64,000 bases of DNA from Alcaligenaceae bacterium (lineage in GTDB: Bacteria > Pseudomonadota > Gammaproteobacteria > Burkholderiales > Burkholderiaceae_B): NCBI GenBank assembly GCA_030538235.1, contig JAUNUJ010000001.1, forward strand, positions 209,749 to 273,748, written 5' to 3'. Shown piece by piece: positions 49,600 through 57,332 of this stretch. The notes beneath the pieces were generated by a model. That model was given only the letters and a program-made list of their open reading frames with translations. It was not told the DNA's origin and searched no databases. The stretch's first letter is position 1, and every line of letters begins with the position of its first letter. Made by a program: the position numbers and the translations under genes.

Positions 49600-50616
49600 A
49601 TGAAAGCAGTTTCAATATTTGCTATACCCAAAGATTTACCCGAAGAGGATCGTCTAGAGCGCCGCCGTATGGTTGTGCGTCTGGGCCTTGCTTGGTTGAT
49701 TATGATGCAGGTCATGATGTTCGCTGCGCCCGGTTATTTCAAACACCAGTATGTAGGGACGGATATTCAGGAGTCGCTAGAGGTAGCGTTGGTCTTATTG
49801 AACTGGATTGGTCTACTATTGACGATACCAGTGCTTTTTTATTGTGCAGTGCCTATCTGGAAGGGCTTATTTGCTGCTGATAGGGATTTTGATCATCGCC
49901 ATAGCATGGTTAATATGAATCTACCTGTGGCTCTTGGTATTGCCGTGGCTTTTTTCCCCAGTGTGCATACGACGATTTACCATCATGGTGAGGTATATTA
50001 TGACTCCATCGTCATGTTTATTGCCTTTTTATTGACTGCACGTTATTTAGAGTATATTGCGGTTCAATCATCCTATATCTCAGGCGATCACGCGATTCTT
50101 GATAGAATTAATCAGTTTCGCAATACAGATATGGCGCACGCCGATAAGTACGCATTTTATTTCGTCGTGGTGCAAATTATCTTGGCTGTACTTAGCGGTT
50201 TGGTCTGGTACTTTTTTATTGACTCATCACACGCCTTGGCTGTTACAGTATCCCTATTCGTGATGAGTTGTCCTTGTGCTATGGCAATGTCAGTGCCTTC
50301 AACTTATGCCGCGGCACGCACTATTCTCTTAAACAGTGGTAGTGATTCACAGATTGATGCGGCGTTTGCTGAATCCATTCTGGAGAAAACTAGAAAAACC
50401 GCGCGCTTCTGTTTAAATATTTCTATCGTCTTTCATCTGCTAATGGCTCCGCTAGCCATGGTTGGTTTGGTCTCTCCTTGGTTGGCGGCGATTATTATGT
50501 TCGTTTCATCGATGTGGGTCGGACTGATGGGCTTGCGTTTGTACAAACGTTTTCGTCGTGAGCTTGATGCTAGAACCTCACAATTGGTTGATAGTGACAA
50601 TTTAACAACAGTTTAG
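49600..50616 (+). CDS. CcoI-like P1B-ATPase membrane domain without catalytic domains
   Basis: A 338-residue protein with eight predicted helices (about 25-46, 64-87, 103-122, 134-152, 184-207, 211-233, 268-292, 294-312). Segment by segment they match the membrane domain of CcoI/FixI copper ATPases: RLGLAWLIMMQVMMFA, YYDSIVMFIAFLLTARYLE and the ion-site CPC at 224-226. Everything between is missing: no N-terminal metal-binding CxxC domain, no actuator TGES loop, no DKTGT phosphorylation site, no nucleotide-binding domain and no GDGxND. The frame is uninterrupted and leads into ccoS and ccoN, so it is unlikely to be a random pseudogene. It cannot hydrolyse ATP; it might bind or pass copper to the cbb3 oxidase. 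Confidence 0.8.
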   Translation: MKAVSIFAIPKDLPEEDRLERRRMVVRLGLAWLIMMQVMMFAAPGYFKHQYVGTDIQESLEVALVLLNWIGLLLTIPVLFYCAVPIWKGLFAADRDFDHRHSMVNMNLPVALGIAVAFFPSVHTTIYHHGEVYYDSIVMFIAFLLTARYLEYIAVQSSYISGDHAILDRINQFRNTDMAHADKYAFYFVVVQIILAVLSGLVWYFFIDSSHALAVTVSLFVMSCPCAMAMSVPSTYAAARTILLNSGSDSQIDAAFAESILEKTRKTARFCLNISIVFHLLMAPLAMVGLVSPWLAAIIMFVSSMWVGLMGLRLYKRFRRELDARTSQLVDSDNLTTV

Positions 50617-51145: not shown

Positions 51146-52615
51146 ATGAGTACTCAAAATGTGATTGGGTCGGAAACCTTTAATTATAAGATAGTCCGAC
51201 AGTTCTCGATCGCGACAGTTATCTGGGGTGTGCTCGGCATGACGATGGGTGTTTGGATCGCCAGCCAGCTCGTATTCCCGGAGCTAAGCTTTAACGAGTA
51301 TTTTGGATATGGTCGTTTACGTCCTGTTCATACAAACTTGGTAATTTTTGGTTTCGGTGGTAGTGCATTGTTTGCAACGTCATATTATGTTGTTCAACGC
51401 ACCTGTCATACCACGCTGTTTGCACCTACATTAGCCGCTTTCACCTTTTGGGGCTGGATGGTTATTTGGACAGCGGCAGCGGTTTCCTTTTCGATGGGTT
51501 ACACCTCATCAAAAGAGTACGCTGAAACCGAATGGGTGTTGGATTTACTGATCACACTGGTCTGGGTGTCTTACGCGATTGTGTTCTTCGGCACTATTGC
51601 TAAGCGTCGTACCAAGCATATTTATGTTGCTAACTGGTTCTATGGTGCCTACATTATTACCATTGCCATGCTGCATATTTTTAACAACCTTCAAGTACCT
51701 TGGAGTTTGTTTAAGTCGTACTCATACTACGCCGGCGTACAAGATGCGATGGCTCAATGGTGGTACGGTCACAACGCGGTTGGTTTCTTCTTGACCACCA
51801 GCTTCTTAGGCATGATGTACTACTTCGTACCTAAGCAAGCCGAGCGTCCGATTTACTCATATCGTTTATCAATTGTTCACTTCTGGGCTTTGATCTTTAC
51901 GTATATGTGGGCCGGCCCTCACCATTTGTTATACACTTCCTTGCCTGACTGGACTCAGAGCTTAGGTATGTTGTTCTCCTTAATCCTTTTGGCACCATCT
52001 TGGGGCGGTATGATTAACGGTGTGATGACTCTATCCGGCGCATGGCACAAACTAAGAACTGACCCTATCTTGAAGTTCTTAGTGGTTTCATTGTCTTTCT
52101 ACGGTATGTCTACCTTCGAAGGTTCAATGATGGCAATTCGTACTGTTAACTCTTTATCTCACTACACTGAGTGGACTGTAGCTCACGTACACTCCGGTGC
52201 TTTGGGTTGGGTTGCGATGATTTCCTTCGGTTCTATCTACTACATGATTCCTAGATTATGGGGCCGTGAGGGTATGTACAAGAAATCCTTAGTTGAGTTG
52301 CACTTCTGGTTAGCTACTATTGGTATTGTTCTTTACATTGCCTCTATGTGGATTGCCGGTGTTATGGAAGGCTTGATGTGGCGTTCTATTGAAGCTGACG
52401 GTACTCTGACCTATAGCTTTGTTCAGGCCCTAGCCTCCAAGAAAATCTTATTAATTATGCGTGTTATCGGCGGTAGTTTATTCCTGACTGGTATTTTAAT
52501 CATGCTCTTTAATATGCTTGTTACTATTCGTGGTCGTGTTGGTGTTAACCCACCAGTACCGGCACCGTCTTATGGTCAACAAGCGCCTGCAGCAGCTGCT
52601 CCTGCCAGTGCATAA
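51146..52615 (+). CDS. ccoN: cbb3-type cytochrome c oxidase subunit I
   Basis: The catalytic subunit of the high-affinity cbb3 oxidase, reducing oxygen at haem b3-CuB. The 489-residue membrane protein has about twelve helices and the metal-ligand histidines in [36 protein letters not shown] and [10 protein letters not shown]. It ends with an Ala/Pro-rich tail. It heads ccoNOQP. Confidence 0.98.
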
Positions 52616-52640: not shown

Positions 52641-53324
52641 ATGTCTGATGATAAAAAAGTTAAGTTTTTCTCTCATGCGATGGTTGAGAGAAACCTACCT
52701 ATGCTGATGGTACTGACCTTCATCACAGTAGGTGTTTCAGGACTTGTTCAAATTGTTCCGTTGTTCCATCAACACTCTACAACAGAGGCGTCGCCTGGTG
52801 TTAAACCACATCAACCGTTAGAGTTGATTGGTCGTGATATTTACATCAAAGAGGGTTGTGTGGGTTGTCATAGCCAGCAGATTCGTCTGTTGAACTCTGA
52901 CGTACAGCGTTATGGTCCTTACTCCGAGGCCGGTGAGACTGTTTACGACTATCCTTTCTTGTGGGGTTCTCGTCGTATGGGTCCGGATCTTGCTCGCGTA
53001 GGCGGTCGCTATTCTGACGAATGGCATCGCGTTCACTTGCGTAATCCTCGTGATGTAGTGGCAGAGTCTAATATGCCTGCCTATCCCTGGTTACAAACTA
53101 AGAGTGTCGAAGGTCACGATGTTCAGGCCCGTATGCGCGCTCTTAACTGGCTAGGCGAACACCACGACGGTAAAGCGATGTACAGCGAAGAAGAGATTGC
53201 TAAAGCACCGACTTTTCTTGCAGGTAAAACTGAAGAAGATGCGGTTGTTGCATATCTTCAGAGTTTAGGTGTTGGCTACATGAATGCATGGCGCCAGCGC
53301 GATACATCTGCTGCTGCAAAGTAA
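52641..53324 (+). CDS. ccoO: cbb3-type cytochrome c oxidase subunit II
   Basis: A membrane-anchored mono-haem cytochrome c. In 227 residues there is one N-terminal helix (about 18-40) and a haem site CVGCH at 73-77, with the distal methionine probably in ESNMPAYPWL. It relays electrons to CcoN. It is 25 bases after ccoN and 17 bases before ccoQ. Confidence 0.97.
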   Translation: MSDDKKVKFFSHAMVERNLPMLMVLTFITVGVSGLVQIVPLFHQHSTTEASPGVKPHQPLELIGRDIYIKEGCVGCHSQQIRLLNSDVQRYGPYSEAGETVYDYPFLWGSRRMGPDLARVGGRYSDEWHRVHLRNPRDVVAESNMPAYPWLQTKSVEGHDVQARMRALNWLGEHHDGKAMYSEEEIAKAPTFLAGKTEEDAVVAYLQSLGVGYMNAWRQRDTSAAAK

Positions 53325-53341: not shown

Positions 53342-53527
53342 ATGTGGGGTGCGTTCAACGGTATCGCGACTATTCTTGCAATAGTTGTTTTCTTCGGGAT
53401 TGTGTGGTGGGCATTCTCTAACCACCGTCGTAAGGATAACGACGAAGCGGCCCTACTACCGTTTAGTCTAGAGGACGAAACAAATTTAAGCGCTGATGAA
53501 CAGCGCAAGGACAAGGATCATGAGTGA
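53342..53527 (+). CDS. ccoQ: cbb3 oxidase subunit CcoQ
   Basis: A 61-residue single-helix subunit (helix about 6-26, with FFGIVWWAFSNHRR) that stabilises the complex. It has an acidic cytoplasmic tail and overlaps the ccoP start by 8 bases. Confidence 0.9.
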   Translation: MWGAFNGIATILAIVVFFGIVWWAFSNHRRKDNDEAALLPFSLEDETNLSADEQRKDKDHE

Positions 53528-54440
53528 TTTTGTTAATAGTGGCTGGGCTATTTGGGTTTCTGCCATTTCAATCTTAGGTGTAGTCTTTGTACTATGGCTT
53601 TTATGGACTCAACGTTCTTGGTTAGGTCAAAAAACTGTTGTTACAGAGGATACAGGCCACGAGTGGGATGGTATTAGAGAGTTAAATCACCCATTACCAC
53701 GCTGGTGGATTATTATGTATCTCGGCCTAACTGTGATTGGTGTGGGCATTATGTTCTTATACCCTGCAGTTGGTACTTGGAGTGGCTTGAGAGGTTGGCA
53801 GGCTGCGTACGAAGTAGAGCAGAGCCAGCAGCAGTTGCGTGAGAGCATTGCACCGGTTTATGCTCGTTTTGAGGGAATGAGCGCTGAGGATTTATCAAAA
53901 GATCCAGAAGCTCGTATTATCGGTGAGCGTTTATTCCTTAATACCTGTGCTCAGTGTCACGGTTCTGATGCTCGTGGAGCGACAGATTTCCCTGATTTGA
54001 CTGACAATGACTGGTTAGGTGCGGGTACACCCGAATACATTAACGGTGTAATTACTAGTGGCCGTGTTGGTTTGATGGCACCACTTGGTGCAGCGTTGGG
54101 CGCATCCGCTGGTGAACAAACTGACAATGCAAACGCTATTGCTCACTACGTACGTTCACTTTCAGGTTTAAGCGCTGATGCTACTCTTATCGCTAAGGGT
54201 CAACAGCACTACGGTACGGTTTGTGTGGCTTGTCACGGTGTAGATGGTAAAGGTAATCCTTTATTAGGTGCTCCTGATCTAACCGATGATATTTGGTTGG
54301 GCAGTTCCTCTCACCAGACGATTGTTAAAACGATTATGGAAGGTCGTACTAACATTATGCCTCCACAAAAAGACTATTTGACGCCTGAGCAAATCGAAGT
54401 GTTAACTGCTTATGTTTGGGGTTTATCCAATAACGAATAA
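53520..54440 (+). CDS. ccoP: cbb3-type cytochrome c oxidase subunit III
   Basis: A 306-residue membrane-anchored di-haem cytochrome c that accepts electrons from soluble carriers. The start at 53520 (MSDFVNSGW) gives the standard FixP N-terminus with two helices (about 10-30 and 60-80) and the WDGI.E.NHPLPRWW motif. Haem sites are CAQCH at 143-147 and CVACH at 235-239. It overlaps ccoQ. Confidence 0.97.
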   Translation: MSDFVNSGWAIWVSAISILGVVFVLWLLWTQRSWLGQKTVVTEDTGHEWDGIRELNHPLPRWWIIMYLGLTVIGVGIMFLYPAVGTWSGLRGWQAAYEVEQSQQQLRESIAPVYARFEGMSAEDLSKDPEARIIGERLFLNTCAQCHGSDARGATDFPDLTDNDWLGAGTPEYINGVITSGRVGLMAPLGAALGASAGEQTDNANAIAHYVRSLSGLSADATLIAKGQQHYGTVCVACHGVDGKGNPLLGAPDLTDDIWLGSSSHQTIVKTIMEGRTNIMPPQKDYLTPEQIEVLTAYVWGLSNNE

Positions 54441-54603: not shown

Positions 54604-56151
54604 ATGAGCGAAGAAATTTCCAAAAATCCTCCTGAGCAGCCAAAGGAGGCGCCTGAGTGGCAGCCACCACGCCCTGAGAGTAAAGAGCCAGTCAGACCAA
54701 AGGCTAAACCAAAGACAGCGGTAGCAGGGCATATTCCAACAAGTTTGGATGGAAGTGAGGTTGAGTTTGTTGACTTGACCCAAAAGATTTACATGCGCTC
54801 AGTCAAGGGTCGTTTTAATAATTGGCGTATTGCCCTGATTTGGTTTACCCAGATTTTATTCTATGGATTACCGTGGTTTAATTGGGATGGTCGCCAAATT
54901 GTATTATTTGACCTGATCGAGCGTAAATTCTATCTATTTGGTCTAGTATTGTGGCCACAGGATATTTTCTATCTAGCAATTATCCTGATCGTTTCTGCTT
55001 ATGGCCTGTTTTTGTTTACAGCGATAGCAGGACGGCTATTCTGTGGGTACGCCTGTCCGCAAACCGTTTACACTCAGATCTTTATGTACATAGAAAAGTG
55101 GGTTGAGGGTGATCGCATGCAGCGTATTCGTCTGGATGAAAGCCCGATGAGTGCACGCAAGTTCAGACTTAAGGCGACAAAGCATGTTTTATGGGTTTTA
55201 GTCGGTTTCTGGACCGGTTTTACCTTTGTGTCGTACTTCTCACCAATCCGAGAGCTCTTCCCTAGTTTATTAAAGTTGGATCTTGGTTTCTGGGAGTGGT
55301 TCTGGATTTTCCTCTATGGTGGTTTCTGCTGGTTAGCTGCCGGTTTCTTGCGTGAGAGTGTTTGTCGTTATATGTGCCCATATGCTCGCTTCCAGAGTGT
55401 GATGGTCGATGCCGACACCATGATCGTTACTTATGATCAGGGGCGCGGTGAACCACGTGGTAAGCGCTCTAAAAAGGCCGACCTGAATGAGTTGGGATTA
55501 GGTGATTGTATTGACTGTACACTCTGTGTCCAAGTCTGTCCTACCGGTATTGATATTCGTAACGGTTTACAGTATATGTGTATCGGCTGTGGTGCCTGTA
55601 TTGATGCCTGTGACGAAGTTATGGATCGGATGGAGTATCCGCGCGGATTGATTCGATATACCTCCGAAAATAGCATGGCCATGGGTCTAAGCAAAAAAGA
55701 GGAGCGCAAGCGTTTATTTAAACCGCGTACGCTTGTCTACTTGACTCTCTTGTTGATATTTATCACGGGGATTATTACTTCCTTAGCGATGCGCAACGAA
55801 TTACGTTTCGACGTAGTGCGTGACCGTAACTCCTTAGGTCGAGAGGTTCCTGGTGGTTACTATGAAAACGTGTATCGTGTTTTACTGGTTAATATGACTT
55901 CCCAACCACGTCAGTTTGTTATTGATGCAGAGTCTCCTGGTTTGGGTGATTTGGACGTAAACCTTGAAAACTCTGGTACCAATACGATTACTGTTTCACC
56001 GCGAACCAACCATTGGACGCCTGTTATTGTCCGTACGCCGGTCGAGGGAAGCAATGTCGGTCGCTATGACATGGAGTTCCACGTTCGTACAGTCGACGAG
56101 GGCAAAGAGCTTAAGATTGATAAATCCAGTAGTTTCTTTGTACCCGAATAA
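54604..56151 (+). CDS. ccoG: cbb3 oxidase accessory protein CcoG
   Basis: A polyferredoxin-like membrane protein implicated in copper reduction during cbb3 assembly. The 515 residues contain five or so helices, the membrane cysteine motifs CGYACPQTVYTQIF and CRYMCPYARFQ, two 4Fe-4S clusters (CIDCTLCVQVCPTGID and CIGCGACIDACDEVM), and a C-terminal immunoglobulin-like periplasmic domain. It starts with a Pro/Lys-rich cytoplasmic tail of about 50 residues. Confidence 0.95.
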   Translation: MSEEISKNPPEQPKEAPEWQPPRPESKEPVRPKAKPKTAVAGHIPTSLDGSEVEFVDLTQKIYMRSVKGRFNNWRIALIWFTQILFYGLPWFNWDGRQIVLFDLIERKFYLFGLVLWPQDIFYLAIILIVSAYGLFLFTAIAGRLFCGYACPQTVYTQIFMYIEKWVEGDRMQRIRLDESPMSARKFRLKATKHVLWVLVGFWTGFTFVSYFSPIRELFPSLLKLDLGFWEWFWIFLYGGFCWLAAGFLRESVCRYMCPYARFQSVMVDADTMIVTYDQGRGEPRGKRSKKADLNELGLGDCIDCTLCVQVCPTGIDIRNGLQYMCIGCGACIDACDEVMDRMEYPRGLIRYTSENSMAMGLSKKEERKRLFKPRTLVYLTLLLIFITGIITSLAMRNELRFDVVRDRNSLGREVPGGYYENVYRVLLVNMTSQPRQFVIDAESPGLGDLDVNLENSGTNTITVSPRTNHWTPVIVRTPVEGSNVGRYDMEFHVRTVDEGKELKIDKSSSFFVPE

Positions 56152-56513: not shown

Positions 56514-57242
56514 TCAGTTATCTTCTTTGCGAACTAGTGCTTGAAGTGCATCCCGATTAAGAATTTTGACTTCTCTTTGTTGTACTTCTATGAAGCCTTC
56601 ACGTGCAAAACGGGAGAGTAAACGACTGACGGTTTCTAGGGTGAGTCCTAAATAAATGCCGATTTCCTCGCGAGTCATACGTAGCACAAATTCGGTTGAT
56701 GAATAACCTAATTGGCCTAATCGATCAACCATATTTAGTATAAAAGCAGCAACACGTTGATCGGATTTGAGTGACCCCAAAGTCAGTGCCATGCGGTGTG
56801 AGCGATTGATTTCATTGCCCATCAAATGACGTAGTTGGGTATGCAGAGCCGGGATCGATTTGGATAAGCGATCCAGATCATCCAGTCTGATCACACAGAC
56901 TTCAGTGTCTTCAAGCGCGATGGCGGTCGATGAATGCTCTTGAGTAGCAATGCCGTCTAAACCGACTAATTCGCCCGGTAAGGAGAAACCGGTGATTTGC
57001 ATATGGCCGTCTTCGCTTTCCAGTTGCGTCTTCATAGAGCCTGAACGTACGCTGTAGATGGAGCTAAAGGGGGTGCCTGCTTGAAATAGTGCTTGGTTTT
57101 TGGGAATGCGAATACGCTCTTTGACTAGTTCAGTAAGCTTATTAGTCTCTTGTTCATTTAAACCTGCGGGCATACATAGATGATTACTCATGCACTGACT
57201 GCAGTGCACAGATTTGTCATCAAGAATAATAGTTTTGGACAT
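56514..57242 (-). CDS. fnr: FNR-type oxygen-sensing regulator
   Basis: A Crp/Fnr-family activator that binds DNA when it holds an oxygen-labile 4Fe-4S cluster. In 242 residues the cluster cysteines are Cys14, Cys17, Cys23 and Cys116, matching the spacing in E. coli FNR. A cyclic-nucleotide-like barrel follows, then the recognition helix LTLETVSRLLSRF with the Glu-x2-Ser-Arg pattern that reads TTGAT half-sites. It lies next to the cco genes, its expected targets. A perfect FNR box and a second palindrome lie upstream of it. Confidence 0.95.
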   Translation of the reverse strand: MSKTIILDDKSVHCSQCMSNHLCMPAGLNEQETNKLTELVKERIRIPKNQALFQAGTPFSSIYSVRSGSMKTQLESEDGHMQITGFSLPGELVGLDGIATQEHSSTAIALEDTEVCVIRLDDLDRLSKSIPALHTQLRHLMGNEINRSHRMALTLGSLKSDQRVAAFILNMVDRLGQLGYSSTEFVLRMTREEIGIYLGLTLETVSRLLSRFAREGFIEVQQREVKILNRDALQALVRKEDN

Positions 57243-57318: not shown

Positions 57319-57332
57319 TTGATGTAAATCAA
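57319..57332 (-). promoter_or_regulatory. FNR box upstream of fnr
   Basis: TTGATGTAAATCAA matches the FNR consensus TTGAT-N4-ATCAA perfectly. It is 77 bases before the fnr start and no gene lies on the other side in the right orientation, so autoregulation is the simplest reading. Confidence 0.75.

Follow-up and report, generated by a model that had tools for sequence, protein, structure and literature searches.

Can a cbb3 oxidase be built with a CcoI that has lost its ATPase? The available text of a review makes cbb3 assembly hinge entirely on the exporting ATPase CcoI, and finds it "puzzling" that a site loaded from the periplasm should depend on a cytosolic copper pool (PMC7558416). The question is raised by a gene in the cbb3 operon of an Alcaligenaceae bacterium, within a 64,000-nucleotide stretch of DNA that we call the window (Table 1).

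The short gene and its surroundings

The original prediction had described an intact frame of 338 codons with eight helices collinear with CcoI/FixI and a CPC motif at residues 224–226, and with no metal-binding domain, TGES, DKTGT, nucleotide-binding domain or GDGxND. Alignment with 20 CcoI-type proteins, picked from 20 related-genome loci by best match to the window protein and not all confirmed as adjoining ccoN, bears out both the features and the absences. Helices 1–8 of all 20 align with the window protein. N-terminal metal-binding domains are absent from it, and the short rows of the alignment start just before helix 1. The actuator domain is missing together with the TGE motif, which 18 of the 20 full-length proteins have, and so are the phosphorylation and nucleotide-binding (P/N) domains with DKTGT and GDG..D, both of which occur in all 20. 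Lacking these ATPase domains, the membrane-only CcoI cannot hydrolyse ATP. Linkers do fill the actuator and P/N positions, although they are slightly shorter than the 30 or so residues proposed for each, at ~23 (157–179) and ~22 (241–262). In entropies computed over the short rows only (65 rows, one a duplicate), these linkers are the least conserved interior segments, with means of 2.57 and 2.47 bits, and helices 4 and 6 vary least, at 0.64 and 0.85 bits. Since the linker segments are the most variable, the domains were lost without a new conserved domain in their place. Five Oligella-group rows carry a DFDHRHS-like, His-containing insertion at residues 100–101, in the cytosolic loop before helix 3, where the other 60 aligned rows have a gap.

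In Pfam the window protein matches only an E1-E2 ATPase stretch at residues 180–241 (PF00122, 32.3 against a cut-off of 28.1), and this match spans only positions 114–176 of the 181 in the profile. In NCBIfam, TIGR01511 (copper ATPase) scores 54 bits, below its cut-off of 397, and TIGR01525 scores 45.3, below 346.25. An AlphaFold model of the protein is moderately confident (pLDDT 74.6, pTM 0.70). Foldseek with an earlier, weak model (pLDDT 62.7) gave nothing at E ≤ 0.001, and its best two matches were a Cu-ATPase. The likeness to CcoI/FixI (CopA2-type P1B-1) comprises the slot before ccoS–ccoN, the eight helices, an MMQVMM-like helix 1, the CPC motif, the Met and Ser of copper site 2, and common ancestry, whereas the short form has no metal-binding, A, P or N domain and is 338 aa long against ~620–930 in the 20 relatives. 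The window protein is a CcoI by descent and, as predicted from these features, not a P-type ATPase by function.

Table 1 Features of the window discussed in the text.
Feature	Position	Strand	Basis or remark
CopA-type copper ATPase, 865 aa	6853..9450	+	full-length; two metal-binding domains, CPC, DKTGT
Membrane-only CcoI, 338 aa, eight helices	49600..50616	+	ORF, ATG start, intact
Unconserved linker, codons 157–179, at missing actuator domain	50068..50136	+	
CPC codons (residues 224–226), Cys pair of copper site 1	50269..50277	+	alignment, 64/64 short genomes
Unconserved linker, codons 241–262, at missing phosphorylation/nucleotide domains	50320..50385	+	
Phe278-His279 codons, clade-specific replacement of canonical Tyr-Asn	50431..50436	+	alignment
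Met300 and Ser303-Ser304 codons, Met/Ser of copper site 2 retained	50497..50511	+	alignment
ccoS/fixS, 62 aa	50651..50839	+	FixS PF03597
ccoN, catalytic subunit of cbb3 oxidase	51146..52615	+	Pfam
ccoO	52641..53324	+	Pfam
ccoQ, 61 aa	53342..53527	+	Pfam
ccoP	53496..54440	+	Pfam
ccoG	54604..56151	+	Pfam
ccoH, 96 aa	56165..56455	+	matches only positions 1–35 of the 150-position FixH profile
Crp/Fnr-type regulator	56514..57242	-	Pfam

The gene begins 33 bp past cysM and stops 34 bp before ccoS, a spacing that places the missing domains outside any neighbouring ORF on the ccoS side. At the far end of the operon, CcoH, a second assembly factor, looks reduced to a membrane anchor. A perfect FNR-type box, TTGATGTAAATCAA, lies at 57319–57332, upstream of the Crp/Fnr-type gene, and 14 FNR-type boxes with at most one mismatch occur in the window against 4.1 expected. 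None of that quality lies just upstream of the membrane-only CcoI gene or of ccoN.

A full-length ccoI elsewhere in the genome had been named as the thing to look for, and homology, HAD and DKTGT searches found none. The only other match of the window protein in its own genome is a weak one to CopA. Four P-type ATPases were found there, all of them complete proteins: CopA, a ZntA-like pump (L044), a 638-aa P1B-type with CPG (L041) and a P2 Ca-type (L048); none of the four is a CcoI. In the 638-aa protein (G000:C13:161021-164680), encoded beside a Crp/Fnr-like gene, the N-terminal metal-binding domain is missing and the CPC motif reads CPG. DKTGT matches across the genome number seven, made up of the four complete P-type ATPases, two short spurious frames and one other frame, which we take to be gyrB/parE-like. 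A split gene with its soluble half elsewhere was rejected after a HAD scan gave 17 matches, four of them in the complete P-type ATPases; none of the other 13 coincides with a DKTGT place. CopA, with all its domains present, might in principle lend the short CcoI its soluble domains in trans, as might another ATPase. We consider this highly improbable: the two cytosolic linkers offer no conserved docking surface, each of the four DKTGT-bearing P-type ATPases is a complete protein in itself, and we know of no P-type ATPase that borrows another's soluble domains.

Distribution and ancestry

The short form occurs in 25 genomes, the window's own included, of a first set of 61 relatives. A set of 268 family genomes gave matches in 202 at E ≤ 1e-8; 18 of these have full-length CcoI only, leaving 184 with the short form, a count made by E-value class. 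Named carriers are Oligella urethralis, O. ureolytica, Pelistega indica, Taylorella asinigenitalis, Brackiella oedipodis and Alcaligenaceae isolates, names which suggest that the family is Alcaligenaceae and the window part of an Oligella-like genome. In some genomes of one genus (g4) the open frames of up to 828 aa run from stop to stop; the matched DNA covers ~308 codons and the extra length lies outside the match. Among 399 genomes sampled from the order, nine have the short form, all of the window's family; among the matches listed the next best has an E-value of 2.7e-40, and further ones cover helices 1–4, mostly in frames of 700–1100 aa. A sample of 274 genomes from the class gave nothing at E ≤ 1e-40 except the window's own genome. 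Within the order and class samples, these data show the short form only in the window's family.

Its distribution follows that of ccoN. Matches to ccoN (TIGR00780) were found in 215 of the 268 family genomes, 199 of them above the cut-off. With 12 weak matches (1e-71 to 1e-88) excluded, among them those of G106, which has a short gene, and G243, which has a full-length one, 203 genomes have a clear ccoN: 180 carry the short gene, 19 have the full-length form (G190 and G204 by one of the searches only) and four neither, second matches in G115 and G100 being outside this count. In each of the four genomes with neither form (G003, G006, G153 and G179) the contig breaks off within ccoN or immediately upstream of it. 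A short gene with no clear ccoN was seen in G079, where the contig ends inside ccoN, in G106, with its weak match, and in G124 and G275, which are fragmentary. A full-length CcoI query at E ≤ 1e-95, with three candidates scored per genome, matched 11 of the 268 genomes, none of them short-bearing; the query misses the distant full-length CcoI of g63, g30, G222 and G252, and its exclusion of a full-length CcoI elsewhere in short-bearing genomes is not complete.

At 63 of the 64 short loci examined ccoN is present, in 62 of these 63 on the same strand as the short gene, and a CcoS-like ORF lies between the two at no fewer than 53 of the 64 loci, by pattern match. The one exception in orientation (L133, G162:C15:489676-493599), a short gene that runs opposite to ccoN, would need its own promoter there. 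Of the 20 full-length loci, at least 9 have CcoI immediately ahead of ccoS/ccoN; at the others the ccoN call is masked by long antisense frames, or CcoI lies after ccoG. A maximum-likelihood tree was built from 298 membrane columns and 95 rows (64 short, 30 full-length and CopA; L140, cut by a contig end, and L036, a duplicate of L060, were left out). It splits the 64 short rows from the 31 others with an ultrafast bootstrap of 100 and a long stem (0.72), and the short homologues thus form a conserved clade next to ccoN, as the original prediction had envisaged. The full-length rows nearest to this clade, G223 and then G032, are both from the window's family. Read most economically, the tree would mean that the cytosolic modules were lost once, in an ancestor inside the family, and that the short form was then inherited vertically while other genera retained full-length CcoI.

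It is scarcely credible that the short gene is a decaying remnant or an assembly artefact. It is conserved over many genomes and genera and under strongly purifying selection, with pN far below pS. An assembly deletion at 49600–50616, which had been raised as a concern, is ruled out by the same architecture in many genomes and genera; 184 of the 268 family genomes fall into the short class, well above anything that chance would give. Decay does occur in the B. pertussis-like genome G140 (L135, G140:C1:2211089-2214547), where an IS-type ORF, presumably IS481-like, separates two fragments of the short gene that lie ~1.08 kb from each other. There ccoN is broken too, matching only in part, so this decay accompanies that of ccoN: the two genes decay together in G140. 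In the available part of one study, ccoN is listed as a pseudogene in B. pertussis (PMC13038864).

Carriage on mobile elements was considered and rejected. Phage matches, in two Enterococcus phages, span only residues 181–247, and the four matches in a plasmid collection cover only helices 1–4, residues 25–165 at most. A match in a Betaproteobacteria MAG (L040) was likewise rejected as a short form, since after its beginning this CcoI continues into other sequence. In it (PLYT01000016.1, 5752-6703) a CcoI metal-binding domain and helices 1–2 run in frame into a different-looking polytopic membrane sequence, which reads as a probable deletion fusion or a misassembly in the MAG.

Predicted copper ligands of the membrane domain

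The available text of PMC7558416 gives Cys380, Cys382 and Tyr682 as site 1 of Archaeoglobus fulgidus CopA and Asn683, Met711 and Ser715 as site 2. By profile match to this protein, together with an alignment to the window's own CopA, these ligands correspond to window residues 224, 226, 278, 279, 300 and 303. Residues were counted in 64 short genomes and 30 full-length rows; one short row (L134) is a contig-end fragment and is the source of gaps. The CPC motif in helix 6 is present in all short and all full-length rows. Residue 278 is Trp in 57 short rows and Phe in six, with one gap, and Tyr in 28 full-length rows and Trp in one, again with one gap. At position 279, all 63 ungapped short rows have His and all 29 ungapped full-length rows have Asn. 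In the MxxSS motif of helix 8, Met300 and Ser303 are found in 63 of 63 ungapped short rows, and Ser304 in 62, with Thr in the remaining one; the full-length set has Met and Ser in 22 rows, and its remaining eight rows end before helix 8.

The short form thus differs from CcoI/FixI in having Trp/Phe for the site-1 Tyr and His for the site-2 Asn, an exchange that is diagnostic of the short clade in the aligned set. CopA (CopA1-type P1B-1; A. fulgidus 7r0g/3j09, Legionella pneumophila 3rfu) is, unlike the short form, a complete ATP-driven exporter with the canonical Tyr-Asn. Because two ligands are altered in a clade-specific manner, the copper path appears to be re-tooled rather than simply retained. 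The original prediction had overlooked these two changes. Its claim of a copper pathway maintained by selection in the absence of ATP hydrolysis finds support in the family-wide clade, its position beside ccoN, the purifying selection and the preserved CPC and site-2 Met and Ser. The sequence would be compatible with each of the roles that it offered, a passive channel, a chaperone or a partner of CopA or CcoG. The clade-specific His279 and the loss of Tyr could also mean that the short CcoI handles another metal or heme through the new His together with Met and Cys. This we find very unlikely, as Cu(I) is what the cbb3 operon, the descent from CcoI and the conserved Cys, Met and Ser ligands suggest.

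Residues along the remainder of the path bear on whether the protein could be a passive Cu(I) channel, or an ATP-independent transporter, working down a gradient set by chaperones. With the aid of the available portions of PMC9433437 and PMC7558416, we take residue 106 to be the cytosolic entry, 135 the exit side, and 151 and 182 acidic entry residues. Met106 is present in 64 of 64 short genomes and residue 135 is acidic in all (Asp in 44, Glu in 20), as in Cu-ATPases, which favours such a channel. Against it, the available text of PMC7558416 gives cytosolic CopZ a much higher affinity for Cu(I) (6e-22 M) than periplasmic SenC or PccA, so that passive flow would tend to run inward. The acidic entry residues are also partly lost, with Glu151 replaced by Ala in 9 of the 64 short genomes and Asp182 by Asn in 15, although this is a weak point since full-length CcoI varies at 151 too (not acidic in 7 of 30). 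On balance, a passive channel seems decidedly unlikely.

A possible role in cbb3 assembly

Available excerpts on Rhodobacter capsulatus describe a CcoI that exports Cu(I) only with hydrolysable ATP, in which CPC is essential and which neither added copper nor extra CopA replaces (PMC8475189). Caulobacter FixI is likewise not bypassed by copper, as its authors conclude in the accessible part of PMC12617631. This failure of copper to bypass CcoI has so far been taken to mean that copper must pass through the cytoplasm. In R. capsulatus it also hints at a non-transport role, and combined with the loss of the whole ATPase engine and the strict linkage with ccoN it would suit a copper-free scaffold, a membrane domain that docks CcoN, CcoS, CcoG or SenC while the CuB copper arrives by another route. 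A CPC motif present in 64 of 64 genomes, Met300 and Ser303 in 63 of 63 rows and a new invariant His are hard to explain with no metal, and we regard the scaffold as unlikely.

The reading that we favour, and to which we would give an even chance, is that the short CcoI, a CcoI descendant by position and phylogeny, has been kept as a cbb3 assembly factor acting as an ATP-independent membrane copper relay for CuB. The protein would sit beside CcoS and nascent CcoN and bind Cu(I) at an intramembrane site formed by Cys-Pro-Cys, His279, Met300 and Ser303. Copper would arrive from the periplasm by way of SCO/SenC-type chaperones, which CopA export or uptake across the outer membrane would supply, or alternatively from the cytosol by ligand exchange, and would be handed towards CuB of CcoN with no pump cycle. 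Four SCO/SenC matches are found in the window's genome. In the available text of PMC7558416 the Cu(I) affinities of the ATPase membrane site and of SenC are similar, so that exchange could run without ATP. The membrane site close to CcoN would then be the part of CcoI that cannot be bypassed. We infer the copper binding, the direction of transfer and the contact with CcoN or CcoS. Against the relay stand the need of R. capsulatus CcoI for hydrolysable ATP, although what holds for full-length CcoI, with its canonical Tyr-Asn, may not apply to the short form; the two changed ligands, which may mean a different metal or no transport; and the only moderate confidence of the structural model.

Natural carriers provide an argument of another kind. 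The short gene is present in Taylorella asinigenitalis (L037), and family and full-length CcoI searches revealed no other CcoI in G245, the presumed genome of this species. One terminal oxidase, of the cbb3 type, is reported for Taylorella in the available text of PMC3250509. Respiring via cbb3 alone and carrying the short form, Taylorella must metallate cbb3 without a CcoI ATPase, which suggests that the short form supports a working cbb3 enzyme and is the strongest natural argument that it does. In Bordetella bronchiseptica, which probably carries the short form, a cco-only strain could not be made although ccoN transcripts were highest, according to the available part of PMC11257404, and cbb3 maturation in the family may for that reason be poor.

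ATP-independent delivery of Cu(I) to oxidases has been proposed for Cox11/CtaG and SCO/SenC in the accessible parts of PMC12617631 and PMC7558416, and in this respect the short CcoI would resemble them. No description of an ATPase-less CcoI was found in the literature searched, subscription papers being mostly outside the search, in keeping with the original prediction, which knew of none. Cox11/CtaG and SCO/SenC have unrelated folds and are single-pass or soluble periplasmic proteins. To our knowledge, the short clade is the first lineage of P-type ATPases reduced to a conserved membrane core.

At slightly less than even odds in our judgement, the family builds its cbb3 oxidase with an ATPase-less CcoI. 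The indispensable part of CcoI would then be the His-re-tooled membrane copper site, a transfer station to CuB and not a pump, and the cytoplasmic route driven by ATP, supposed to be obligatory, would have exceptions. The ligand swap is a diagnostic feature that biochemists can probe. In a CcoI that has naturally shed its engine throughout a family, the pump and the remainder of the protein come apart, and the puzzle of cytosolic copper becomes directly testable.
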